From the NCBI GenBank assembly GCA_947579605.1, contig OX388307.1, positions 4,813,237 to 4,877,236 of the forward strand: DNA of 64,000 nucleotides. Direction: 5' to 3'. A program made the position numbers and the translations under genes. The DNA is from Athripsodes cinereus. Its lineage: Eukaryota > Arthropoda > Insecta > Trichoptera > Leptoceridae. Shown piece after piece: positions 8,196 through 59,790 of the stretch (its first letter is position 1; each line of letters starts with the position of its first letter). The notes beneath the pieces were generated by a model. The model saw nothing but the letters and a program-made list of their open reading frames with translations, made no database searches and had not been told where the DNA came from.

Positions 8196-8600
8196 ATTAT
8201 TTGGTCAATTTCTACTATAGGTTATCCAATAGTATCCAGTTAGAAATTATATATTGATGATCATAATTTTACGATTTTTTATTATCCTTCACTGTGTACC
8301 GTAACAAGATATCACAGAAGCCATATGGGGGACGAGGGTTTGCATCTTGTCCAGTGATTGTAATTTAATGTAAATGCATAATTATGCCATGAAATTCGAC
8401 TATGTACAGGAGTAAATCATTACAAATACAAATTATATTATAAATACAATTTGTACCCCTCCCCCATCTCATACCTGGATGCCCTATGATATCTTGTAAC
8501 GGTGTACAGTGAAATATAATAAAAATAAATACAACAATGATCATCAATAATATCTAACTGGATACTATTGGATAACCTATAGTAGAAATTGACCGATTAT
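8196..8600. mobile_element. Palindromic MITE with ~125-bp inverted arms
   Basis: The left arm (8196 to about 8325) reads ATTATTTGGTCAATTTCTAC, TATAGGTTATCCAATAGTAT and on to CCGTAACAAGATATCAC. The right arm (about 8475-8600) is its reverse complement with scattered changes (GTGATATCTTGTTACGG versus TATGATATCTTGTAACGG, and GGATACTATTGGATAACC preserved). The middle has no coding capacity. It is a non-autonomous foldback or MITE-like element; the superfamily is undetermined because a clear target duplication was not found. Confidence 0.75.
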
Positions 8601-8714: not shown

Positions 8715-9035
8715 TCTTCTTCTTCTTCTTTTACTTCAGTTAGGACTATGTCCTGTGGTTCTCGGAGCCTGCTCCTGGGAGGTGGATGTCCAACTGTCCC
8801 TCCATCGTTTAGGTGGTCTTCCAGGGGGTCTGTTTCCTGTCATGCTTTCATCTGCTGCAATTCTCACCACTCGATCTGAGCTCGCCCTCTCCACATGATC
8901 TCTCCAGAAACGTCTTCTTGTTCTGCCCCATCGCACAACATCTTCGACATTACAGATTCTTCTAATTTCTGAATTTCTCATTCTGTCACGAAGAGTTATA
9001 CCTGCGATGGGTCGTAGAGTTTTCATTGTCATTAT
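8715..9035 (-). mobile_element. LINE 3' fragment (GRPPKRW family)
   Basis: The minus frame 8736-9032 encodes 98 residues with LRPIAGITLRDRMRNSEIRR near the N terminus, then RFWRDHVERA and GRPPGRPPKRWRDSW. This is the classical C-terminal region of insect endonuclease-reverse transcriptases (compare GVTRLDRIRN..DIR, W.GHV.R and GRPKKRW). The stop is followed by a GAAGAAGAAGAAG tail (plus 8715-8732), as in RTE/CR1-type elements with short simple-repeat tails. The copy is 5'-truncated but this part is uninterrupted, so the insertion is fairly young. Confidence 0.8.
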
Positions 9036-9220
9036 AATTTACTAAAATTATTATTACTGGTTAGATGAGAGAAATCACTGAGTAATATAAAATACCTGGT
9101 GACAATCTCCCAACACATTTTTTTAATGCAAATTAATTGGTTGTTTTCGTTATATAACTGACGATGCTCGAAAAAAGAAAAATAAATAAACAATCTTGAT
9201 GTAGGTACTTAATTATATCG

Positions 9221-9335
9221 TCAACCGACAGTATTTGGTGGAAATTCATGTTAAATTAATGAAAATAAAACACTTATATTTAGTGCTTCCACCGAGACTT
9301 TATTAATTGCGAGCCGACATTAAATTTCCTTGATT
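9221..9335 (-). mobile_element. Penelope-like terminal-repeat fragment (PLE-A), ribozyme lost
   Basis: The minus strand reads GGCTCGCAATTAATAAAG, then a variable AT region, then AATTTCCACCAAATACTGTC and GGTTGACG. The block order and the end (TCCACCAAGAACCGTCGGTT in better copies) match PLE-A copies at 34761-34900 and 54964-55095. The CUGACGA core of the hammerhead is not recognisable here. Confidence 0.55.
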
Positions 9336-10224
9336 TTTCAATATAAAAGGTTTGTATATGCAGAACGGAGATTACAACTCGAGAACCTCGTGACTCAAAG
9401 ACAAGAAAGTTACTTTCATGCACACGGGCCGTCGATATGAAGATGTCCTGGATACCTATAGATGTTATATGTATTTATGTTTGGTGCGATGTATCATCGC
9501 GTGAGTACCATTACACAAGATTTATGTCTTAGTTTGGGTCAAAATAGATCTGTGTGAATCGTCTCGAATTTGTATGTTATATGTTGTAATTATTCCAAAG
9601 CCGAGTTGAAAGTTAGTAAAATTAATTTTATATTAATAACCAGAATGTAATAATAATAATATGTATGATTAAAGCGGTCAAACAAATGAAAGACAAACAA
9701 TTAATGGGATAAATTCATTGAAACAATTGAAATGAATAACTGAATGTCAACCAATGATGATAATATTAAATCATTGCAATGGCTAGTTAGTTAGCTTCAG
9801 TACCTACCTTATATTATTTATATAAAATCATAATATTGAATGGCTATGTTGATGATGCAGCCGCAATAAAACTATGCACACATGCAATTCAAAAAGCGAC
9901 AAGTCCATTCCAAAAATAGCATATTTCGAAAAAATTGTTTTGCTTGTATACCAGACCTGATTATTATAGGTACTTGGTAAAAATTTAACTTCCTTTATAG
10001 TTTATCCGTTACTTAATTAATACACAAGTTCCAAAAGTGTACGCAAGGATAAAAATAAGTGATGTATCTATTCTCCTGCAGATCCATTTTTCATAGATAT
10101 TTAACTATTTATGTTTCTATTTTAGTTGGCTATTATGTAGTTTAATCAATACGATGAAAATCCACCTCTAAAAACTTCAATAGTGACAGAAATAGAAATG
10201 TGCTGTTTTCTTAGTTTCAATGTT
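9336..10224. other. Non-coding, nothing assigned
   Basis: AT-rich DNA with no recognised repeat. The CTGACGATGCTCGAAA string at about 9158 superficially resembles a hammerhead core but has no stem II. Confidence 0.35.
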
Positions 10225-17336: not shown

Positions 17337-19009
17337 ATATTGCAATAGAGCGCTTTTTTCATGCTACATTCATCTTAACCGTAACATTCTATGTTTAAAA
17401 TAGATATGATTTACTGATGCAGAAAGAGTATATTTCAAATAACAAAAAGTACAACCTGCACTTAAATAATAAGAAATGGAAGTGAGAATGAGGTAGGTCA
17501 GCGAGCAAGATTAACCATAGAAAGAAACGAATGAAGAAAAATTGATTATAGAAAATGATTGAAAAGTCAAATAAAATAAACAAACATACCGACGAAACGA
17601 AATATTAATATAAAACAATGATACAAATTTCCGTCGAAATTCGATTATGTTTCAAAAGTTCAGAGCGATAAGCTGAAATTCGCGTGACGGCGACGCCGAC
17701 GTCCGCAACTGAAGACTACGAACGGAAATCAAATCGGGAAAACGTACGGGAAATAACAACGTAAAGGAACAATATATACTTTACATAGTGGACAGTTATT
17801 AAGGTTAGCCATCAAATATAATCAATTTATTTAATTTAAGGGAAAATATTATTATATTCGACAAGCGACATTACAGAAAATATACAAAGTTTCCGAGTAT
17901 ATTGACCGTAATTTACGAATAACTGTTGTTTGGAATAAAATTAGTTATTGTACCAAAATTCAAAACTTTATCAATCTCGTCACGACATTTCATAGTAATT
18001 TGTTTCACATATATCAATAAATTGTAAATATTATAAACGTGATAATCTCAATTACCCGACGAGAAAGGAAGTTTTTTGCAAATGCGCTAAGAAATTCATA
18101 CTTCATGTACTGAAATATCTTAAGTGTCCAAACACAAGCATAATGGAAAATACTTTTGATGCCTCCTCGCTGTTGGGAAACTGGCTCTAAACTGGAGATA
18201 GCTTAAAATCTTAACTTAGAGTTTGAAGACTATTAACACTTTTTTAGTAACTGAATTCTGTAATGTCACAAAAAATATTTTTTCAGGTTTCACGGTCCTT
18301 ATCGTGTTTTCATACAAGTATCATACAGAAATTAATAAATTAAATAAACACTCATACGACCCTGTTTTTATTTCTATTTGTGAATATATACCTACTTATT
18401 TTCCCAAAACCAATCTTCTATAAAACAAAAACTTCAAATCCCCTCAAATTGGAAGGAATCCCTTATACAGTCTTGCGTAGTATATAATATCGTGTCTACC
18501 GGTAAATAAAAGTCCAACGTAGTCTATAAAAGCCTCAAAACAAATTTGGATAGATTCAGTCCGTAGTATTATTATTACTATCATAATAATACACCGACCC
18601 TCCTAAGACCTTCAAGCCTTAGGATATCACATGTGATGTTACGTACTTAAGACAGTAGGATATGCGCTCTGTGCAGCCTCTTGCAACGCAATAAATCTGC
18701 ATCGGCTTACTGGCTGACTGACACAACGTATCAACGTCACACAGGGATGCAGTCACGGTATAAATCAAGCTTAATATAAAGCCAGTACTACGCCACATAG
18801 ACTTGAACACGGCACATATTAATTTTAAGACATTTAATATGGAGGGAAACCACTTTTCCATTTGTGTTTAACCGTTCGTAATAAAAATAAACTTAACATC
18901 CTGGATTATAATATCTACTAATGCTCAATTCCTACAAAGGTGTATTAAGTTTCTTTTTTTTATTTACGTTATTTTTGTACCCGTCTATCCCTCAGAAGAA
19001 ATATATAAA
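17337..19009. other. Unassigned; includes a small CpG-rich patch
   Basis: Around 17675-17750 there is a CpG-richer patch (CGTGACGGCGACGCCGACGT), possibly regulatory, without any ORF attached. The remainder is AT-rich with a few 60-80 codon ORFs of no recognisable content. Confidence 0.35.
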
Positions 19010-19162
19010 GTCATTGAGTTTGACAATGACTCTATAAGTCGAAACCAGGTCACTACTCAATAAAAAGATCAAGTAAAACTAAAACCAATTATGTTTTTTC
19101 CATAATATAATATAAACATGGAGTTTTACAAAATTAACGTCGACTCAATAAATAAATAAGAG
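19010..19162 (+). mobile_element. Penelope-like terminal repeat (PLE-B) with decayed hammerhead
   Basis: TTTGACAATGACTCTATAAG then TCGAAACCAGGTCACTACTC is followed by AAGTAAAACTAAAACCAATT, TCCATAATATAATATAAAC, ATGGAGTTTTA and the end AACGTCGACTCAATAAATAA. The first part folds like a type I hammerhead with GACU/AGUC stem II, GAAAC and a final GUC. The core is UUGACAA instead of CUGANGA (two changes), so it should be inactive. The 3' end includes the extension seen on one side of the 48.8-kb element. 5'-truncated single arm. Confidence 0.6.
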
Positions 19163-20688
19163 AATCTTGTTGCACAAAATGCAATCATCGATGAAAACAT
19201 TAACAAGAAATACTTAGTGAAATATTTATTTAGTGGAGAAGATAAAAATATGGAAAAGATTAGAAAAGAAGAATAGCAACGAAGTAATAAAAATGTTACT
19301 CGACAATAAGATTTGTAAACCTCAAATGACATAGTTTCCAGTATTTGAAGACGGAAAACGTAGCGCGAGAACCCTGCAGTCCCGACACCATTCATAGCTT
19401 CCTGTCGCGCTGGAGATAAAGAAATATTCGGCTAAACGATCGTCCTAATGGTACGATACATACTCGTACACATGGGGGAGGGGGAGAGCCTCGCGGCTGT
19501 ACAAAGATAATGTCCTAATAGAATACTGTACTATGTCACGAGAAAATTGAGAAAATACCCCTCTTTGCAGAAGTCCTAGACTATGATATTCGTGATAATC
19601 TGTACACGACTACCTGATTCAAAATATTGATTGCGCACAATATGTCTATCGATTTATACCATTACAGCATATCTATCTAATAAACTACAATTATAATAAA
19701 CATTAAGATTGTAGGTATTCAAGTTGTCCTCTTGTCAATATAATAAAATGTAAGCAAAATAATTAAGATTGCCAATATAATAAAATGTGAGCAATATCTC
19801 AAAAAAGATGCAGTTTTGTGGAATATCTGTTTTCCATAAGCTTAAAAAGCAGCTTGCTCGTTTTAAAACATTTAAAATAGTGCGAAAATTTGCTACAAGC
19901 CTGAAAAATTAAGTTACGGATCTAAAATTAATTTTCAAATATCGTTTATACTTACATAAAATCAATTCAATACAATGTAAGTATTTCACCCAAAAGATCT
20001 CTAATTACTACATATCAAGCTGTGTTAAGCAAATATCCTAGGTAATTTGGAAGGAGATGTGTTATTTCAATAAGACTACGACATAGCCCTAGATAATACT
20101 ACACTCTACGCTACGCTATGCTACGACGCGGTACCTACTACGGATCTACGACACCCTGCCTGAAACCAGCCGTGCAGGGAGAAGAAACTTTATGTAGATA
20201 CCTAATATAATACATAATGCTATCACGAAACCATTCCCAACTGGATATATTTCTTACTTTTGTTTCTAGTTTAACTTTCTTTTTATTTATTTTTTAGTGC
20301 AAAAGACATTTGTATTGATGCAATTCAAACTGCAAGTTGATATTAAATATAAACAATTTATTATTATTCGCTGTGTTTGTGCAGTAGTAGAATTGTTTTT
20401 TTTTTTACTAAAATTCTAAAAATATATAAATTGATGACCGAGAGATACATTTCTTTGATTGATTGACAATGTCCAAAGACAAAAGACGCCTCTCTTGGTA
20501 CTCAATACGTGATTTATCATTATTTTTTCTATACATTGAAAACAATATCTATAATATATATATATGGGTCTGGATGTTGTGCATTGTATATGCGTGTCAT
20601 TGCATTAGTTCATCTAGCACAAGATTCATATCTGAGTTTGGGACTAGCTCGAAATGTGTTTCACATATGTTGTCCAGCATATATATTT
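19163..20688. other. Non-coding, nothing assigned
   Basis: No gene or repeat family recognised. Near 20098-20125 there is a short CTACGCTACGCTATGCTACG simple tract. Confidence 0.35.
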
Positions 20689-20890
20689 ATTATTAATTTA
20701 AAATAAAATAAACTTTGTATTTTCCACTAGAATAACTTTAATTAGAGTTAAAACGTTTTCGCAACTATGTACTTGTTCCATCATCAGTAACAATACTAAA
20801 CATAAACTAGAGGAAAATACAAAGTTTATTTTATTTTAAATTAATAATGAATATGGAATTCCACAGTGTTAATCACGAAACATTCGAAAA
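20689..20890. mobile_element. Short foldback Penelope-like element (PLE-C)
   Basis: A 36-bp inverted repeat, starting TTATTAATTTAAAATAAAAT (20689-20724) and ending as its exact reverse complement (20812-20847), brackets a hammerhead on the minus strand. The right arm continues with an extension (ATTCCACAGTGTTAATCACG) resembling the TCCAC-type extensions of the 34.8, 50.3, 55.1 and 57.1 kb elements; the left arm lacks it. An 8-bp direct repeat ATATATTT borders the element (20681-20688 and 20891-20898), but it is AT-rich and alone would be weak evidence of a target duplication. Confidence 0.75.
20747..20791 (-). ncRNA. Hammerhead ribozyme (type I, PLE-C)
   Basis: Minus strand: stem I GUUA (20791-20788) pairs with UAAC (20750-20747). 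The core is CUGAUGA (20787-20781), followed by an unpaired U. Stem II is GGAAC/GUUGC with one G-G mismatch, and GAA is at 20760-20758. Stem III comes from the palindrome AACGUU, and cleavage is expected after U at 20751. All invariant core residues are present. The very short self-complementary stem III is what Penelope-like element hammerheads show, and such motifs often work as dimers. The G-G mismatch in stem II may weaken it. Confidence 0.75.
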
Positions 20891-33190: not shown

Positions 33191-34760
33191 ATGAAATTTA
33201 ACGACATGTTACACGTAATGTAGCACGATTTTTTGTCCATGAGACTCGTATATTAAAGCGATATTGTACAAGTGATCCTCATAAGGTACCTTGAGGTTAT
33301 TCCAAAGACCGCAAATAAATAATAGTGGCAGAGTATGTATGGTTGAATAGACATTTCAAATTAAAAGTTTCATACATTTCTCTAGTCTCTGATTTGATAT
33401 ACGAACATAATATTATATATACTCTAGAACCGTACTCACTCCACTGCGTAAAAAATGGAAAAGGTGGGAGATATTTTTTTTATAAATCATAATATTTTTC
33501 TCCCATTCGCGAGTAAGATAGACGGGGTCCACCACCTTCTCCATCATCACTACACTTGCTTGCAGGAGGGGAAAATAGAGAGCAAGGTATCGATTCGACA
33601 AGTAAATGAAAAATCGCTAAAATTATTATACTCCAATAGAGAAGAGGCGTGCAATGCAGGGTTGTGAAACGTGAAGGAATTATGTATTAAAATGAAACAC
33701 TTAAACAGCAAAATCCACAGTATATGCACATTTTTATAAACTTGTGTTTTAAACATTGTAAAAATACAATAAATAAATAGGTAATTAAAGTAATTTAAAT
33801 TTGTACAGCATTACAGAAGTAATTGTGAAGAGACCCAAAAATGCATTTGTAAACATTGAAGACTCTCTCATATATACAATTATCTAAAAAGTCAGGGGAC
33901 TTTAATTTATATGCTTTTCTGTATAAGTTTTAGCCTCAAAGGCTGGTCAGCCAAATCCGGCCCTGTGTTATGATTTCGTTTAAATGGTTGTCTACAAATT
34001 TCGATGCAGTGCCGTACGTACAACGGCAAAAAATGTTAAAGTAATTGATACAACCATGTTTGTAAATAAAATAAAATAGAAACGCTAAATAAACACAACC
34101 CTTAGTCTAGTTTTGAAATCAAAATGCACTTCGAAGGAAAAAAAGATTTTCACGTACCATTTCCGTTCAGCCGTTACTCCTAAGAGAAATTCCAACATAG
34201 GGTCGACTGAACACAACAGAGAAATAACAGTATGTATGAACAAATTTCTATAGAAATAATAATAGTAGGTGCATGTTGGGATCCCTCCCAATACAGTAGT
34301 GGGAGCTTCTCTCTAAATCCTAGAGCCCTCAGTTACATTAATGTAGTTACAAATACACCCGAGGGCAATGTGCAGGAAGCCGGTTGAAAAATAATCTGGT
34401 ACTGAATAAAATAAATAAACAGTAGGTATGTACGAATACACACACAGACATAAAGAGAGAGGATGATCTTGTATTTGTAATAGGTATGATATTATGACCT
34501 CAGGGCTTAACAGTGAGTGCAAAGGACTTTTGATTAAATAGAATACTGTCGACATCAATGAACCCGTGTAGTTTTATATAAGTATGAACAGTTTGTACAA
34601 ATTTAAACAAACATCATAAAGTTTTTCTTCTGTACAAATAATGACGCTAAGTCGTCATTCGTTCATCAAATGACCTGTAGCGTCTAATTAAAAAGTTTTT
34701 ATTGAAAGTGCAAATATTTTAAATAGCACATTTCTTAACAAAGAGATCTTAAAAAAAGTT
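33191..34760. other. Non-coding, nothing assigned
   Basis: Several opposing 60-80 codon frames overlap one another (33413-33756, 34085-34558) and none carries a motif. No repeats recognised. Confidence 0.35.
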
Positions 34761-34900
34761 CAACACATTAACCGACGGTTCTTGGTGGAATTATTAAACA
34801 TGATAATAAAATATCAAAATGAAACACGTAATGAAGTAATTTCAATTGACTTATATTTGCGAGCCGGACGAGCATCTCATCGTCAGGCAAATTTAAAGTG
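34761..34900 (-). mobile_element. Penelope-like terminal repeat (PLE-A), decayed ribozyme
   Basis: On the minus strand the copy reads AAATTTGCCTGACGATGAGA, GGCTCGCAAATATAAGTC, then GTGTTTCATTTTGATATTTT, and ends ATTCCACCAAGAACCGTCGG. The hammerhead stem I (AUUUGC with GCAAAU) and CUGACGA core (34886-34880) are intact. About 10 nt containing the GAAA strand are missing compared with the copy at 54975, so it cannot cleave. The 3' extension is complete on the left. Confidence 0.7.
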
Positions 34901-37147: not shown

Positions 37148-38103
37148 TTAATTCTTCTTCTTCTTCTTATGGGTTATACCCGTTATATTCGTATCTCAAG
37201 ATCCCGCAGCCATGAGATCGCGTCGTCCGACCCTAAACTAAGTGCTTGCAACCCGCCATCGTATGAATATCGGGGACATATGTTCACCACGTGGTCTGTT
37301 GTTTGGTCAGCACCACACACACATAACGGAGAGTCTGCGAGTCCCCATTGATGTAGGTGTGATGCTGTGCATCCGACCCCACTCCTTAGTCTGTTCAGCG
37401 TGCACCAGAGTTTTCTGGGCAAAGTAGAGCCTGGAAGCTGTACAGTTGGATCTGCAACCAGGTTATGGTTTTTCACCCTTGTCGTTGCCCACAGATCTCG
37501 CCATTTGTCATCAGTTGGTTGTCTATCGCTTGCAGCTGTAATCCAATATGGATGCCGCGATTTTAGTCGATATTTAGGTGGATGTTCTATATCTATATGT
37601 ATAGGGAGATCTGGATTATTAATGATTTTCTGGTGTTCTCTGTATAGTGCTTCTTCACGCCTGAGATGTGCGGGCGGTATATTGGAGAGCACTGGGAGCC
37701 AAGGTAGAGGAGTTGGTTTGAGAGTACCACTGATAATTCTCATAGCTTCATTTAGTTGGGTGTCTATGAGTTTTGTATGTGCACTTTTTAGCCACACTGG
37801 TGAACAATACTCTGCGGCTGAGTAAACCAAACCGATTCCCGCAGTTTTCAATGTTCGGGCATCACATCCCCACGTAGTTCCGGCGAGTTTATATAGCACA
37901 TTAAGTCTACTCTTTACTTTTTGCTGGAGGGTTTCAAGATGAGCCTTGTATGTTAGTGCTCTGTCCAGTGTAACACCTAGATAACGAGGGTGTGCTTCAT
38001 TATGTATTCTGCTTCCTCCAGAGTAGACATCAACTTCTTTTCTCGCCTGTGCATTGTGGAGATGGAAAGATGTAACGGTTGTTTTGTTTGGGTTTGGCTT
38101 AAG
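37148..38103 (-). mobile_element. Non-LTR retrotransposon, open RT C-terminal half
   Basis: On the minus strand a frame is open from about 38101 to the stop at 37183, roughly 307 codons. It has no ATG at its start and opens KPNPNKTTVTSFHL. Then come YLGVTLDRALTYKAHLETLQ, YSAAEYCSPVWLKSAHTKLI, LNEAMRIISGTLKPTPLPWL, YRLKSRHPYW and, near the end, a CxC...H...C knuckle in LCVCGADQTTDHVVNICPRY. These are the post-catalytic RT, thumb and C-terminal cysteine motifs of insect non-LTR elements. The catalytic YADD lies upstream and is missing by 5' truncation. The stop is followed by an AAGAAGAAGAAGAA tail (plus 37148-37163). The clade is not certain. An uninterrupted frame suggests recent insertion. 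Confidence 0.9.
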
Positions 38104-39584
38104 TTTCTATTTTTTGAAGTTAATTACTGAATATATTAACAAAAACATACATTCAGTATGTGTACCAGCAAAGATACTCAATGTACCAGAAAAATTTAAG
38201 TCTAAATAAATCAAAGTTAATTGAATCATCATAAAAACAACGTAAAATTTAGTACCGAATAACTTACAATCTTCGAAATGAATAAGATACCAAAACAAAT
38301 CAAGAACAAAAAAAATTGGCAAGCATTTATTTAAAATAAATCAGATTTAGTTAGTATTTTGTTTTAGTGTTCAAGAGATGTTCATATGGCTTTCGCAGAC
38401 TCGATCTAATGACAACCTATTTAATTTTTATTTTAAAGTAAGTCCAAAATTCGGCGTATGGATTTTCATCAACTGTATTTTCAATTCGATATTTGGTCAA
38501 GTACAGTATGGATTATCAATCAAGGTTAAACAGGACTAGATATCACATTCATGTACTAGAAAAACACTATTTTCTTCCAAGTAATTCACTTAGAGACGAC
38601 TCATTGCTCATTCAAAAGTATTCGACATTGGTTATCAGTTTTATCTTTTCACTAATAGTCTACATGAACCGACTCATAACTCGGATCATTCACTCGCTCA
38701 TCTCTATTTCAAAGTTTAGTATTTGCAATGGTAGTAGGTACTGGTACGTACGCCCGCTGGGAATACCTATGCCCTCGCAACATTTTGAGAGAAATATAAT
38801 ATAAAAGAATATAAACGAGAGATTTCTTTTTTTTACATTATCAAGTACATTTTTTCTAGCTCTTAATAATAATAATATCTGGCGTATGATATTAGGCACA
38901 CGATGTTTGTTTTGTGAAATAGGTTTACGCTAATTGAAAATATTATGCAACTACCTCTCAAAGTCACTTCTTACGAAACACTCCGGAAATCGGGAACATA
39001 CTTACTGAATAAAAATGGGTATTTACTTAAGCGAGTAAGTATAAAAGAACGTAGGGAGAGTACGTAGACACAACAAAATTATTTGTTTTAGGTTATTTGG
39101 GTGACTTTTATTTATATACTAGCTTTTATAACCCGGCAACGCTCGGGTTTAAAAACAGATATTCATCCAAATATGTGAGTTAAAACTACACAATCTTATT
39201 GAAAAAATGAACTTAAAATCTATTTAGCAGCAAAAAAAGTACATGTCATAATAATAATCAGCTCTATGCGTGCCAAAATCATATATACAATACATACAGT
39301 TTGTCAAAAAATAGTTGACAAATAATCGAGGGCGCTGTTATCTTTCACATTGTAGCCCTATTCAAACATTGATTGTGTAAAAACGAAACCTTGTAAGAGA
39401 ACCTACTTTCACATTACATTCATCACTTTCAATTCTCACTCTTTCTATCAGTCTCTTTCCGTGCATACATTTAGTTGCTGACTCTTTTTATTATTCACTC
39501 TTTTAGTTCCAGACAAAAAAAAATCCTATAGCTAATAATAATAAGCTAGGACCTCTCCAAGTAAATGGACTTTTTACATACATA
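38104..39584. other. Non-coding, nothing assigned
   Basis: Sequence immediately beyond the LINE 5' junction is AT-rich with no homology recognised. ORFs at 38107-38899 are short and mutually overlapping. Confidence 0.35.
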
Positions 39585-43930: not shown

Positions 43931-44149
43931 GTGGATTTGCTTGAAAACAGAGATGGAAAATAAAATATATAAAAGTACCATTTTAGTATCTTGCCCTCAA
44001 TGATTTTTTAAGAAATTTAAGGGGGAAAATCAACAGATTTTTTTTTTCTAATAACTCCTAAAAAAGGAGTGCTTCACTGGAAGATATTCCTTCGTAATAA
44101 TTGATAACTTATTTAAAATAAGCTATAATACACGTGAATAAATCGGATT

Positions 44150-44345
44150 TATGGAGTTGACTTATTTTGTGAAACTCCATAATAATTTGGGTAAAAATGA
44201 ACGCAAATGGTTTAAGTTTAACCAAATTTTAATAATTAAGTGACCTGGTTACAACTTACAAAATCATTGCCAAACTTTGACAAAAACTAGCAACTTGATA
44301 TAGACTTTGTTAGTCTAAACCAGGCGACTCAATTATCAAAAAATA
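44150..44345. mobile_element. Penelope-like element (PLE-B), two decayed inverted hammerheads
   Basis: The left arm on the minus strand reads TTTGGCAATGATTTTGTAAG, TTGTAACCAGGTCACTTAAT. The right arm on the plus strand reads CTTGATATAGACTTTGTTAG, TCTAAACCAGGCGACTCAAT, then AGTAAAACTAGAATCATAAG. Both align with the PLE-B ribozyme block at 19.0 and 48.9 kb in head-to-head orientation. The left end GGAGTTGAC recalls the PLE-B extension. Both cores carry substitutions and should be inactive. Confidence 0.5.
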
Positions 44346-48835: not shown

Positions 48836-49002
48836 ATTTATTGAGTTGACGGTAAAAACTCCATGTTTATATATGGAAAAACACAATTGGTTTTAGTTTT
48901 ACTCAGATCAGTTTAACAATGACTTTATAAGTCAAAACCAGGTCACTGCTCATTAAAATATTTTAAGTAAAACTAAAACCAATTGTGTTTTTTTCCATAT
49001 TT
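48836..49002. mobile_element. Foldback Penelope-like element (PLE-B), 12-bp target duplication
   Basis: A 167-bp element is bordered by an exact 12-bp direct repeat GTCAATCAAACT (48824-48835, 49003-49014). The left part is inverted: it carries the extension TATTGAGTTGACGGTAAAAA, CTCCATG, then ATATGGAAAAACACAATTGG. The right part is forward and ends AAACCAATTGTGTTTTTTTC, CATATT without the extension. Between them is one decayed hammerhead block (TTAACAATGACTTTATAAGT, CAAAACCAGGTCACT), in which stem II is perfect but the CUGANGA core and the G of GAAA are mutated. The shape matches PLE-C, -D and -E. Confidence 0.8.
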
Positions 49003-50240: not shown

Positions 50241-50443
50241 ACACATTTAATTTTCAAAAAACTATTCTATTGAAATCCTTAAGGTACCTATATAATTTTT
50301 ATTTCAATTGAGTATTTAAAAAAACAAATTAATTAAAATGTCAAAAACATTAATGTTGTTGACCGAAGGTACTTGTTGGAAGTCCATTTCAAGATAATTG
50401 AAAAAAACACAATATGTAGTTAACTTCCAAATGACTTTATTAA

Positions 50444-50487
50444 CTTCGCGTACTAGTATTCGGAGACTCTCGTCTCCATATCAGGCG
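50444..50487 (-). ncRNA. Hammerhead with one-base core deletion (PLE-D left arm)
   Basis: Same fold as at 51314-51357, but on the minus strand the core reads CUGAUAUGGAGAC instead of CUGAUGAUGGAGAC. This removes the equivalent of G8, whose 2'-hydroxyl acts in catalysis. The rest of the motif (stem II GGAGAC/GUCUCC with GAGA loop, GAA, UACUAGUA) is unchanged. It should be dead. Confidence 0.7.
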
Positions 50488-51313
50488 ATTAGTAAAAAAG
50501 TAAAATAAGATACAGAGACAAACAGTATTTATAGGATTTGAACAAAAGAAAGTTGGGAGAAGCCCGTGTTGATAAGAAAGTAATTACAATTCATTGATGA
50601 AAAACTATTGGAAAATGAACCGCTGTGGACGGATTCACGAGAGAATAATTTAAGATTCATCTTTATTCCCTAAGTAACACATGTTTATCCTCGGTGATTC
50701 CGATACAATAATCAAAGCCTTTTGAAAAATATAACAATATAATATTATAAAAAGAATATTACTGCCTTTGTTTTCCTTGTTTACAGTTAATTTGCTGTTG
50801 GGGGTCATCAACCATCGATCTGCCTACTTCAACTCAGCACCTTACCTGTACACTACATTTCTTCAAACATCATTAGAATAATCGTGTTGTTTTTATAAAT
50901 CAAATATCTCACATCATTATTACAATGTTAAAGTCACTATACTCATATTGAGCTAAATCATATTGTTAATTTTTATAAGTAACTTCCTTTTTCTATTAAT
51001 AATTGATTCACATGTACCTACCTTAAGAAACTTAAATTTTAGTTAATAATCTAGCATTTTTGCTCTTCTCTGATTTGGGTTTTCTGTGGTTTCCCCATTT
51101 CGCAATAAGGTAAATACTGGAGAAGTTAGATATTTATAAGTATTTTTCTTAAATTATTCTCTCGTGAATCCGTCCACAGCGGTTCATTTTCCAATAGTTT
51201 TTCATCAATGAATTGTAATTACTTTCTTATCAACACGGGCTTCTCCCAACTTTCTTTTGTTCAAATCCTATAAATACTGTTTGTCTCTGTATCTTATTTT
51301 ACTTTTTTACTAA

Positions 51314-51357
51314 TCGCCTGATGATGGAGACGAGAGTCTCCGAATACTAGTACGCGA
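51314..51357 (+). ncRNA. Hammerhead-type ribozyme with swapped 15.1-16.1 pair (PLE-D right arm)
   Basis: Stem I is UCGC (51314-51317) with GCGA (51354-51357), and the core CUGAUGA is at 51318-51324. After an extra U, stem II GGAGAC/GUCUCC is perfect with a GAGA tetraloop (51326-51341). GAA follows at 51342-51344, then the stem III palindrome UACUAGUA and C at 51353. In canonical hammerheads the pair next to the cleavage site is A15.1-U16.1; here it is U-A, giving a UAC triplet instead of NUH. Activity is therefore uncertain although the fold is convincing. Confidence 0.65.
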
Positions 51358-51422
51358 AGTTAATAAAGTCATTTGGAAGTTAACTACATATTGTGTTTTT
51401 TTCAATTAAATTAAAATGTCAA

Positions 51423-54963: not shown

Positions 54964-55095
54964 ATAAAGTAAAGTTTGCCTGACGATGAGAACGGAAACT
55001 CTTGAAAGCCCGCTCGCAAAAATTATCTAGATATCGTGTTTCATTTAAAAATTATTAATATGATCATCCACCAAGAACCGTCGGTTGATAAATTA
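54964..55095 (+). mobile_element. Penelope-like terminal repeat (PLE-A) with intact hammerhead
   Basis: ACATAAAGTAAAG leads into the hammerhead (54975-55020), then ATTATCTAGATATCGTGTTT, CATTTAAAAATTATTAATAT and the end TCCACCAAGAACCGTCGGTT. Two other family members are at 9221 and 34761 on the minus strand. Only one arm is present. Assignment to the Penelope-like group rests on the ribozyme type and the architecture of related elements in this window, not on a protein. Confidence 0.7.
54975..55020 (+). ncRNA. Hammerhead ribozyme (type I, PLE-A)
   Basis: Stem I is UUUGC (54975-54979) with GCAAA (55016-55020), 5 bp. The core is CUGACGA (54980-54986). Stem II is GAG/CUC with the loop AACGGAAA and flanking U residues. 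GAA is at 55004-55006. Stem III is AGC/GCU with a CC loop (55007-55014), giving a canonical A15.1-U16.1 pair, and cleavage is expected after C55015 (CUC triplet). Every invariant residue is present; the weak point is the 3-bp stem II. The tiny stem III is the hallmark of hammerheads reported in Penelope-like elements. Confidence 0.85.
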
Positions 55096-55240
55096 AACTA
55101 AATCAAACAACCCCAATTTGTGGCGCAACCGCAATTATATTTCGTGATAAATTTAATACATATAAACATAAAATGTATTAAATATAAACATATATATTAT
55201 ATAGGTATGCCCAATTTTAGACAAATCAAAACGACTACAT

Positions 55241-56190: not shown

Positions 56191-57138
56191 TCTCTGAAGT
56201 TGTGATGAGATGTAAGTATTCGACAGGTTTCTTTTGCAAATTTCACAGTGTGTAAAGCTCTGAGTACAAATCGCTGAACAAATGAATGATAAAGTCAAAA
56301 TATAATATATTTATTATAATAGTGATAACAATTGTAAATATGCAAATATTGTTAACATATTCAAATAACGATTCAATGACCGATAATGAAATAACAGGTA
56401 AGAAAACTGCGCTATAAACATTGACCTAATAGACTATAGACTAGTAACGTAGTACTATAATTACCTCATAAAATACGCTCCAAAATTTATTACAATTTGC
56501 TATTTCACTTCCGACATTAATATGGTAAACGTGTCCCTCGCTCTCATACATAATAATATTATCATCCTATATACTCACAAAATCATAAAAGGACCTTAAA
56601 ATATAATAATAATAATCCAGAAGTGCTTCAAATTAAACAAGTTATTATAAACACAAAACTACTATTATTAAAGACGCACTCCTAACATACGAAACATCGA
56701 CATATTTTGTGTCAACAGTAACATATTTTTATAAAATAAATGCATCTACAACGAGGTACTCGAGGGAAATTTGAACTTCCTTTTTGAACCAACGCTCGTT
56801 TAAGACTGATAGATATGAAATTATTTTGGTCGCATTACCAATTTTTTCATTAAATTTCCAATCTACTCTAAATGTCATTGGCTGTAAATATGGATTATAA
56901 ATCATACATATACGCATGTGACTTCTTATTTCAAATCTACAAGTTTCTATAAGCTCCAAATACCTAATTGTTAGTAAACTGAAATATGTATGCAACTGGA
57001 CAACGACTCACTCCCAAAGCAGCATATAGAAGTAACAAAGTAGTAAGAACGTAGTCAAATATCTATATACGATATAGGATACTTGAGTATACGAAATATA
57101 TGGTAAAATTGCGTCAAAATATAATAAAGTTAATAAAT
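56191..57138. other. Non-coding, nothing assigned
   Basis: Ends with TTAATAAAT (57130-57138), the probable left target duplication of PLE-E. Confidence 0.35.
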
Positions 57139-57232
57139 ATTCTATATTTTCAAGTGTAACTTTGTGGAAATACATTATAAAAGATAATATTTAAATTAAA
57201 ACACTGTTTAATTCCACTATGAGATTGCTTTA

Positions 57233-57276
57233 ATTAAAACGTTTTCGACTACAATGTAGTCATCATCAGTAATAAC
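57233..57276 (-). ncRNA. Hammerhead ribozyme (PLE-E left arm)
   Basis: Exact reverse complement of the motif at 57421-57464: core CUGAUGA at plus 57269-57263, stem II GACUAC/GUAGUC, then GAAAACGUUU. See that entry for the full fold. Confidence 0.85.
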
Positions 57277-57420
57277 ACAATACTAAATCTAAAATTATCC
57301 ACACACTATGATAATCATGATAATAATTATGATAATAATCCACACACACACTGCCAATTGTGACCACTCCTTAAATTTTTAATATTGTTGTATGTCCTTT
57401 AATTTTAGATTTAGTATTGT

Positions 57421-57464
57421 GTTATTACTGATGATGACTACATTGTAGTCGAAAACGTTTTAAT
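57421..57464 (+). ncRNA. Hammerhead ribozyme (PLE-E right arm)
   Basis: Stem I AUUA (57424-57427) pairs with UAAU (57461-57464). The core is CUGAUGA (57428-57434), then a spacer U. Stem II is GACUAC (57436-57441) with GUAGUC (57445-57450) around an AUU loop. GAA is at 57451-57453, the stem III palindrome AACGUU at 57454-57459, and H17 is U57460. All invariant nucleotides are in place. The palindromic stem III has almost no loop in cis, so dimeric hammerheads in trans or tandem are expected to fold better, as described for Penelope-like element ribozymes. Confidence 0.85.
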
Positions 57465-57574
57465 TAAAGCAATCTCATAGTGGAATTAAACAGTGTTTTA
57501 ATTTAAATATTATCTTTTTAATAAATTTAAATGATTTACGGGAAGCTTTTCAAAGTAAAGTAATTAACAACAAA

Positions 57575-57750: not shown

Positions 57751-59559
57751 CCGAATAATAATTACTATTGAAGTTATACAGAGTGATTATATGTAATAAT
57801 TAGTATTCAAATTGCATAAGTAACCTTGACTCTTTTAATCGTATGCACATAGAAATTGATTGTTTAATTAACAGACGCTACTAATCACTATTAAGAAGTG
57901 ATTTAGCACAATTTATATTACCTACTACTTAAATATTCAAAGCGTTCTCTCATCCCATCTTAAGAGAGTTACGGGGCACTTTTAAACACTTGGTTCTAAC
58001 AGGATACTCCAAAATAGCTATGTATCTAAATAATTTATAACCATAGAATTTATTATAAGCTATAACCACGAAAAGTAAAATAATTTTTTTAATGATATGG
58101 ACAGCATTAAAAATGTAAGATTATAAGTGTTTTATCTTGTGCGCAGACCAGAGATAATCACAGATCAAGCGAGAATGAAACACCAGATCTACCTGTCTTA
58201 GCACATTTCTTTTGCTTCTTCCACATCACACAATCTCAATTTATTTTCTTGTTTTCTATTACATTACTTGTCTAGTAAAACGAAATACTTGTTTTTATTT
58301 CAATATCATTAGAGAATTCAAAAACTACCCTAATATGTTTTGAGGAAGTGCGTACGAATAACTAAGCTTGGGGTGCTGTTGCACCGCCTCGCCACCGTAA
58401 TGTAACACAAGACGATGAGAGTTGTGTTTCACCCAGAGGCAATGAAATGTGCGTAAAAAGGGTGCCCCTATATACATTATAGATATGCACAAACGCAACC
58501 GGCAACACGACACTGCAAAATCAATAGTGTGCAACAACTAAATGAATACAGTAATACACACATTTACATTGAATTTAATAACGTTGTAGGGTGAATAGAA
58601 AACTATATTTTAAAACGAACTCCAAAAAAAACAAACAATTTAAGAAAATGCGAATAAGGTAAAACAAATACGATCCTTAATATTTACAATAACTGACCGT
58701 CTTTCTTAAGTTGAGACACAGAGTGTAAAAACCAACTTAATTTTTATTTTTTAAATTAAATTATTTTATTATGAAACATATACAATTTTTTAAACACTAC
58801 ACAAATTTTAAAACTACACAATGTTCAGCTCATTTCTTCGAAATTGAGCGGTTTCGATTAAAACTATATTTTATAGTACATTTTACTTTAAAAGGTATAC
58901 ACAGATGAAAATATATTGGCCACCCCAGGTCTGAATCAAAACAAACTACCCTTGAAACTAAGTAATGCATAATATAAAGACATTGAATTGAAATACCACA
59001 TGAGGGAAGCTTGGATCTTACGTAATATCTACACAATCATTAATTTATTTACTGGTGTAATTCAACCCGACTTCCATCACGAAATAAATATCAAATTGGC
59101 AAGTTAACACTTTAAAAACTGGCAACACTATCATTCAAATACTTTCGACAGTACTATCCATGTCCTATCATGATCTGATATAAAATATTGGTGAATATTT
59201 TTTGTATAGTAGTCCAAAAATATTACAAATGTAGTATTTTTACGACTACTATACTATACTATACTACTATTTAGCATATTTAATAAAAATGTAATCACCG
59301 TGTCGGTGTTGAGGTAGTAGAATTCCATAACGAAATTCTATTCTATTCTGTTCTATCTTTAAAGGCCACTCACTAAATGAATGAAACAAATGTTTTATTC
59401 TTCTATTCGATTTATTTAAAGACCCTTTTGTCTTGTTAGGACATTGTCAATCATGTATCACTAATAATTGTTACAAGTACGATAATGTCCTAGCAAGACG
59501 AAAAACGTCACTATCTTTAATTAATCTAATAGTAGAATAAAACATTAATTTTTTTTATT
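57751..59559. other. Mostly unassigned
   Basis: At about 58160-58245 ATGAAACACCAGATCTACCT, GCTTCTTCCACATCACACAA weakly recalls the RTE 3' region (minus). A CTATACTATACTATACTACT simple tract lies at 59253-59272. No genes. Confidence 0.35.
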
Positions 59560-59790
59560 TCGATATAAAAATGTTTTGATACAACATGCAAAACAGTATA
59601 CAGTAGGTATTCAATTCCCATGCAAATCTGACATCTCTGTCAATATATAAGATTTTTACAATATTTTAGCATAAAACCTGTCCAATAGATGGAACCTCGT
59701 ATAGAATGTATTATTTTTTCTCTGTTTTGTCTAATTTAAGTGTTTATAAAGTAGATACATAAAAACAAATGAACGGTCACAAATATTTAA
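59560..59790 (+). repeat. Family D repeat copy
   Basis: ATAAGATTTTTACAATATTT, AGCATAAAACCTGTCCAATA, GATGGAACCTCGTATAGAAT, GTATTATTTT and CACAAATATTTAAATTAG align with 43730-43930 at roughly 70-75%. Confidence 0.55.

Follow-up and report, generated by a model that had tools for sequence, protein, structure and literature searches.

Among Penelope-like elements (PLEs), copies with inverted pLTRs are described for a rotifer in PMC3846280, one of the two pLTRs bearing a 31-bp tail at its 3' end. According to the same account, the inverted copies are mostly arranged head-to-head and show duplications of 8-10 bp, unrelated sequence is caught between the pLTRs in a few cases and some copies have no duplication. 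In the papers considered here, the mechanism that produces inverted pLTRs in PLEs is unsettled; this source argues for self-priming and leaves the matter open. Minimal hammerhead ribozymes are reported to be conserved in PLEs (PMC6155905). For PAc, the Poseidon element of Anolis carolinensis, PMC11167929 describes a PLE protein that cuts and extends both DNA strands in vitro and favours A+T-rich sites, with reverse transcription starting at two internal sites and the tail corresponding to the stretch between them. The same source reports that hammerhead mutations leave PLE insertion in vitro unaffected, and also that the PAc hammerhead does not cleave unless protein is present and that its cleavage site yielded no reads, which leaves the role of the motif unsettled in an established PLE too.

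Here we describe an element, E1 (50331-51422), located in the window, that is, the whole 64-kb stretch of DNA that was analysed (32.2% G+C). E1 consists, in this order, of a target-site duplication (50331-50344), a 50-bp tail (50345-50394, minus strand), a 261-bp arm (50395-50655, sense on the minus strand), a unique and non-coding spacer of 491 bp (50656-51146), a 262-bp inverted arm (51147-51408, sense on the plus strand, delimited by alignment and exact-word pairing) and a second copy of the duplication (51409-51422), which adjoins the right arm. The ends of the element face outward, and only the left one has the tail, which holds an ORF-start-like ATG at 50387, going down, that opens MDFQQVPSVNN... 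The duplication, AATTAAAATGTCAA, is exact, 14 bp long and A+T-rich, and a match of this length or longer was reached in 3 of 10000 random placements. The insert between the duplications measures 1,064 bp; the span proposed from the letters in the sequence-only reading, 50345-51409, is nearly equal to it but not exact. We infer that the arms of E1 are pLTRs.

Both local alignment and exact-word pairing showed the two arms (50395-50655 and 51147-51408) to be inverted copies of each other apart from one base, confirming the single difference over about 260 bp that had been noticed earlier. The left arm, reverse-complemented, reads CTGATATGG and the right arm CTGATGATGG, and the left arm indeed lacks the G of CUGAUGA as had been claimed, with a core CUGAU-A on the left, where one G is absent, and CUGAUGA on the right. 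We take the absent base to be G8 of the hammerhead numbering. The local alignment extended over 272 columns with further mismatches at 50390, 50393 and 50394, all of which correspond to the tail and duplication zone, beyond the E1 arm.

The right arm carries a type I minimal hammerhead (51314-51357, plus strand, core at 51318), identified by a stem scan with shuffle control. It consists of stem I (TCGC/GCGA), the core CTGATGA, one additional T, a stem II of GGAGAC/GTCTCC closed by a GAGA loop, GAA, and stem III (TAC-TA-GTA), with predicted cleavage after the next C. All three stems and the core CUGANGA ... GAA are present, with an inserted U following A9. The equivalent motif of the left arm lacks G8 (CTGAT-ATGG). 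The core alone is weak evidence, since a loose pattern of core, gap and GAAA gave 3 matches in the window (1.06 expected), none of them at 51318, and 7 of 100 shuffles also reached 3. The stem scan, which required stems I, II and III and allowed one extra base after A9, returned 4 motifs in the window, compared with none in any of 200 dinucleotide shuffles (mean 0.0, maximum 0). Because the motifs at 51318 and 57269/57428 were already known when the scan was designed, only the one at 54980 is independent of that design. When one core substitution was allowed the count was again 4, against a shuffle mean of 0.115 and a maximum of 2.

Folded alone, the arms of E1 gave energies of -14.5 and -14.7 kcal/mol with stems I and II forming in both, and the lowest-energy fold of each arm also pairs part of the core and is not the exact hammerhead fold; restricted to stems I and II in the hammerhead register, the right arm gave -11.9 kcal/mol. 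In the minimum-energy fold of the whole-element transcript (-520 kcal/mol), every one of the 261 bases of the left arm is paired with its mirror base, which would bury both motifs in a long hairpin. The left-arm ribozyme is very probably inactive, since G8 is missing and the G8C mutation abolishes cleavage in a PLE hammerhead (PMC11167929). The earlier description of one folded and one dead ribozyme needs qualification, as folding by itself does not tell the arms apart. In addition, the A15.1-U16.1 pair is absent from both arms, which have U15.1-A16.1 instead. A natural variant with U15.1-A16.1 self-cleaves less efficiently, and for mutants at 15.1/16.1 a loss of at least tenfold is cited (PMC3088659), so the right arm, off consensus at this pair, is only possibly alive and its predicted ribozyme is probably weak.

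In all 4 motifs returned by the stem scan in the window a single U separates A9 from stem II, so that A9-U-G10.1 reads AUG. The ORF of PAc is reported to start at stem II, after C3 and G8 (PMC11167929). A start-codon role of the extra U in E1 and E2, the second inverted element presented below, is only a possibility, and the hammerhead AUG does not appear to be a working ORF start in them since it opens only 8 (E1 right arm) and 4 codons. The extra-U pattern CTGATGATGACT..AGTCGAAA was found in 70 stretches of viral contigs (L002-L071), 51 of them distinct, and 67 of the 70 passed the stem test as complete hammerheads (43 type III and 24 type I), indicating that the extra U is widely tolerated. 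At least 120 matches were listed for the canonical form in viral contigs, and among the canonical matches in the retrieved viral loci 110 of 125 passed the stem test. The exact E1 ribozyme pattern had 0 matches in viral contigs. A looser version had a single match in genome contigs, in Thiohalocapsa, coding-like by eye and taken as chance, and the tail pattern matched 9 loci in viral contigs that were also taken as chance, with no hammerhead seen by eye in the 150 upstream bases inspected (only 22 for L074).

Rfam proved uninformative as a hammerhead test. It detected no hammerhead in the window, and none at gathering scores in 34 of the at least 190 viral pattern loci, which comprised 17 canonical-pattern loci (22 tRNA matches, all in L133) and 17 extra-U loci (one tRNA). 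Scans of L004, L006, L017 and L081, and again of part of L006, likewise returned no hammerhead.

A second inverted element, E2 (57131-57526), has the same layout as E1. It is bounded by the 8-bp duplications TAATAAAT (57131-57138 and 57519-57526) and contains a 40-bp tail on the left only (57139-57178) and two identical arms of 119 bp (57179-57297 and 57400-57518), which carry intact, identical hammerheads, one per strand (57269/57428). Counted as a 9-bp match, with one base common to the arm, the duplication was equalled in 80 of 10000 random placements, and this 8-9-bp duplication is only moderately significant. The E2 tail starts just past the arm with an ATG, and its codons, MYFHKVTLENI, are similar to the MDFQQVPSVNN of E1.

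The tail motif ATGnnnTTCCAnnAAnT occurs exactly 3 times in the window (50387-, 57175- and 9249-) against 0.12 expected, with 0 of 100 shuffles reaching 3. This count is partly circular, because E1 and E2 supplied the motif and one of its letters was relaxed once the match at 9249 was known. With one mismatch there were 7 matches against 3.55 expected, which is not above chance (11 of 100 shuffles reach 7), and with two mismatches there were dozens, mostly chance. From these, eleven tail starts (five E-numbered and six c-numbered) were chosen by eye, and no count rests on this choice. The overall similarity between ends gives better support than the tail-motif count. Over 85 columns, the 3' end of E1 matches that of the single end E4 at 72.9% identity (E 5e-5), and the single ends E3 and k34 reach 75% over 77 columns at their 3' ends (E 1e-6); both E values apply to the 64-kb A+T-rich window. 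E3 (54980-55097, plus strand) has an intact core CTGACGA at 54980 and a tail-start ATG at 55060; E4 (9201-9345, minus strand) has its tail-start ATG at 9249 and a core decayed beyond recognition; k34 (34746-34900, minus strand) keeps CTGACGA and has the stem II/GAA region deleted. None of the three was seen to have an inverted partner spanning its whole end. In the alignment all three read GCTCGC at the cleavage point, so that U at 16.1 looks ancestral, and the deviation is common to both E1 arms. Counting the left and right ends of E1 together with E3, E4 and k34, 3 of the 5 related ends, a small sample picked in this window by tail-side end similarity, are broken in three different ways, which looks like decay.

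Further features were noted in the window. A third inverted element, E5 (20683-20854), is 76% self-complementary over 177 columns and contains, on the minus strand near its centre (20757-20787), an intact core CTGATGA with an imperfect stem II; its tail runs from 20853 (plus strand), with the tail start MEFHSVN on the right, and its 8-bp candidate duplication (20679/20916) is not significant, with 8 bp or more reached in 187 of 5000 placements. A second family of PLE-like ends lies at 18990-19153 (plus), 44147-44330 (minus) and 48894-49001 (plus), with cores read by eye as TTGACAA, TTGGCAA and TTAACAA. In 3 of the 5 aligned rows of this family U3 and A8 replace C3 and G8, while the core of a fourth row is unrecognisable and the fifth row does not extend over it; U3-A8 covariation is reported in natural hammerheads (PMC3088659). 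The ORF-start-like tails MEFYYLNTDTV (59248-59588) and MKFYYLNTDTV (297, plus strand) were also observed, the former adjoining an imperfect palindrome (59375-59560, about 73% over 192 columns) that gave no match in the hammerhead stem scan. A 42-bp inverted repeat is present at 8203-8244 and 8553-8594, with 308 bp between its copies.

As to coding capacity, the E1 spacer has stops throughout all six frames, and its six-frame translations had no Pfam match, including to RT or GIY-YIG endonuclease; it may hold a short RT remnant. Ten ORFs of the 64-kb window that were searched likewise had no Pfam match, and the single short match of one window ORF in viral contigs has no bearing on E1. Two open frames on the minus strand (37186-38106 and 8739-9038), also without a Pfam match, resemble by eye the C-terminal parts of non-LTR retrotransposon polyproteins. 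Together with the G+C content of 32%, the lack of long ORFs points to a eukaryotic source, an insect being no more than a guess.

With regard to PLE anatomy, E1 shows inverted arms, a hammerhead in the arm, an A+T-rich 14-bp duplication and a tail at one pLTR end, of 50 bp in E1 (beyond the usual 30-40) and 40 bp in E2, and its spacer lacks the telomerase-like RT domain and the GIY-YIG endonuclease. Since no RT or endonuclease was found, the PLE origin is deduced from anatomy, and because the protein is absent we term E1 PLE-like, non-autonomous or truncated, and not a full PLE. We consider it probable that E1 is a non-autonomous or truncated Penelope-like insertion and that its loss of G8 was a random one-base deletion.

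The sole difference between the arms sits in a catalytic-core position, which could favour the idea that the G8 deletion was selected or maintained so as to leave one active ribozyme. The sequence-only reading had raised the possibility that selection acts against a transcript with two active ribozymes, but since the arms are inverted the transcript of each strand holds at most one sense hammerhead, and because the plus transcript carries one sense and one antisense copy, and the minus transcript the reverse, two active ribozymes per transcript are not possible for the E1 pair. The ribozymes of E1 are on opposite strands, E2 keeps both motifs intact, the right arm is off consensus too, PAc hammerhead mutants, including G8C, are reported still to insert in vitro (PMC11167929), and chance alone would place a lone change in the core in about 4% of cases; selection on the core deletion is therefore extremely improbable, and we rejected it on the strand logic, the intact E2 pair and the odds. 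More precisely, a random single difference would fall in one of the roughly 11 invariant core positions of 261 with a probability of 4.2%, these positions having been chosen afterwards, and anywhere in the 44-base motif of 261 with a probability of 17%, figures that speak for the simple chance which had been offered as the other explanation. A single core deletion is by itself of little weight, and the intact motif pair in E2 suggests that the loss of G8 reflects chance decay and not selection. An error of sequencing or assembly, with arms that are in fact identical, would concern one base in a single record, and long inverted repeats are difficult to assemble, but the G8 site is not a homopolymer and we regard such an error as improbable.

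Inverted termini and a non-coding interior would also be expected if E1 were a DNA transposon of the fold-back or MITE-like type, with terminal inverted repeats that resemble a hammerhead by coincidence. This origin is very unlikely, as the duplications differ in length (14 bp and 8-9 bp), the tail is at one end only, the hammerhead scan is far above shuffles and the single ends E3, E4 and k34 have no seen inverted partner of the whole end. More weight should be given to a PLE-like origin in which a single template primed itself or folded back to produce the inverted arms, a model that PMC3846280 draws from palindromes at inverted junctions and favours for head-to-head copies. The near-identity of the arms is as expected from one molecule copied twice, but the 3' termini of E1 and E2 differ in having or lacking a tail, which fits two separate starts of reverse transcription, and no inverted pair of at least 20 bases lies wholly within the E1 spacer, so that we judge self-priming rather unlikely. 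Two-strand priming at two template sites is our preferred, though unproven, explanation for the formation of E1 and E2.

In two-strand priming, a PLE protein would nick an A+T-rich target on each strand, with roughly 14 bp between the two nicks, and each nicked 3' end would prime reverse transcription inside the element RNA. A distal start on one strand would leave the tail and a proximal start on the other would leave none; the two cDNAs would be joined within the element, giving two inverted pLTR copies with the duplication outside. The one-base deletion could have come from an RT error, been present in the source RNA or arisen after insertion, and with the left ribozyme dead and the right one probably weak it would have had little or no consequence for insertion. 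That E1 and E2 record two-strand priming, and that the extension seen with PAc in vitro is the in vivo rule for inverted pLTRs, can be put forward only tentatively. As small, clean copies whose duplications are readable and whose tail is confined to one end, both elements are well suited to separating two-strand priming from self-priming.

Among known systems, metazoan non-LTR retrozymes (PMC7229834) resemble E1 as small non-coding repeats with type I hammerheads and low G+C. They are described as tandem repeats with small circular RNAs, whereas the copies in E1 are inverted, with one motif per strand, and lack the direct arrangement of hammerheads that characterises retrozymes. E1 is like the minimal PLE hammerheads (PMC6155905) in being type I with a very short stem III, and it differs from those described there in that one arm has lost G8 and both carry U15.1-A16.1. 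Adineta vaga Pen2a and related families (PMC3846280) have in common with E1 inverted pLTRs, a tail at one end and a short duplication, and a captured spacer is present in a few of these PLEs as well; the Adineta vaga PLEs described there differ from E1, which has no RT/GIY-YIG ORF and no direct pLTR pair, and has a duplication of 14 instead of 8-10 bp and a tail of 50 instead of 31 bp. PAc (PMC11167929) is a full-length element in tandem repeats, whereas E1 comprises short inverted ends only, but the two are alike in the hammerhead at the junction of pLTR and ORF start and in the A+T-rich target, and the tail of PAc, which under two-strand priming would be comparable to that of E1, is explained by two RT start sites.
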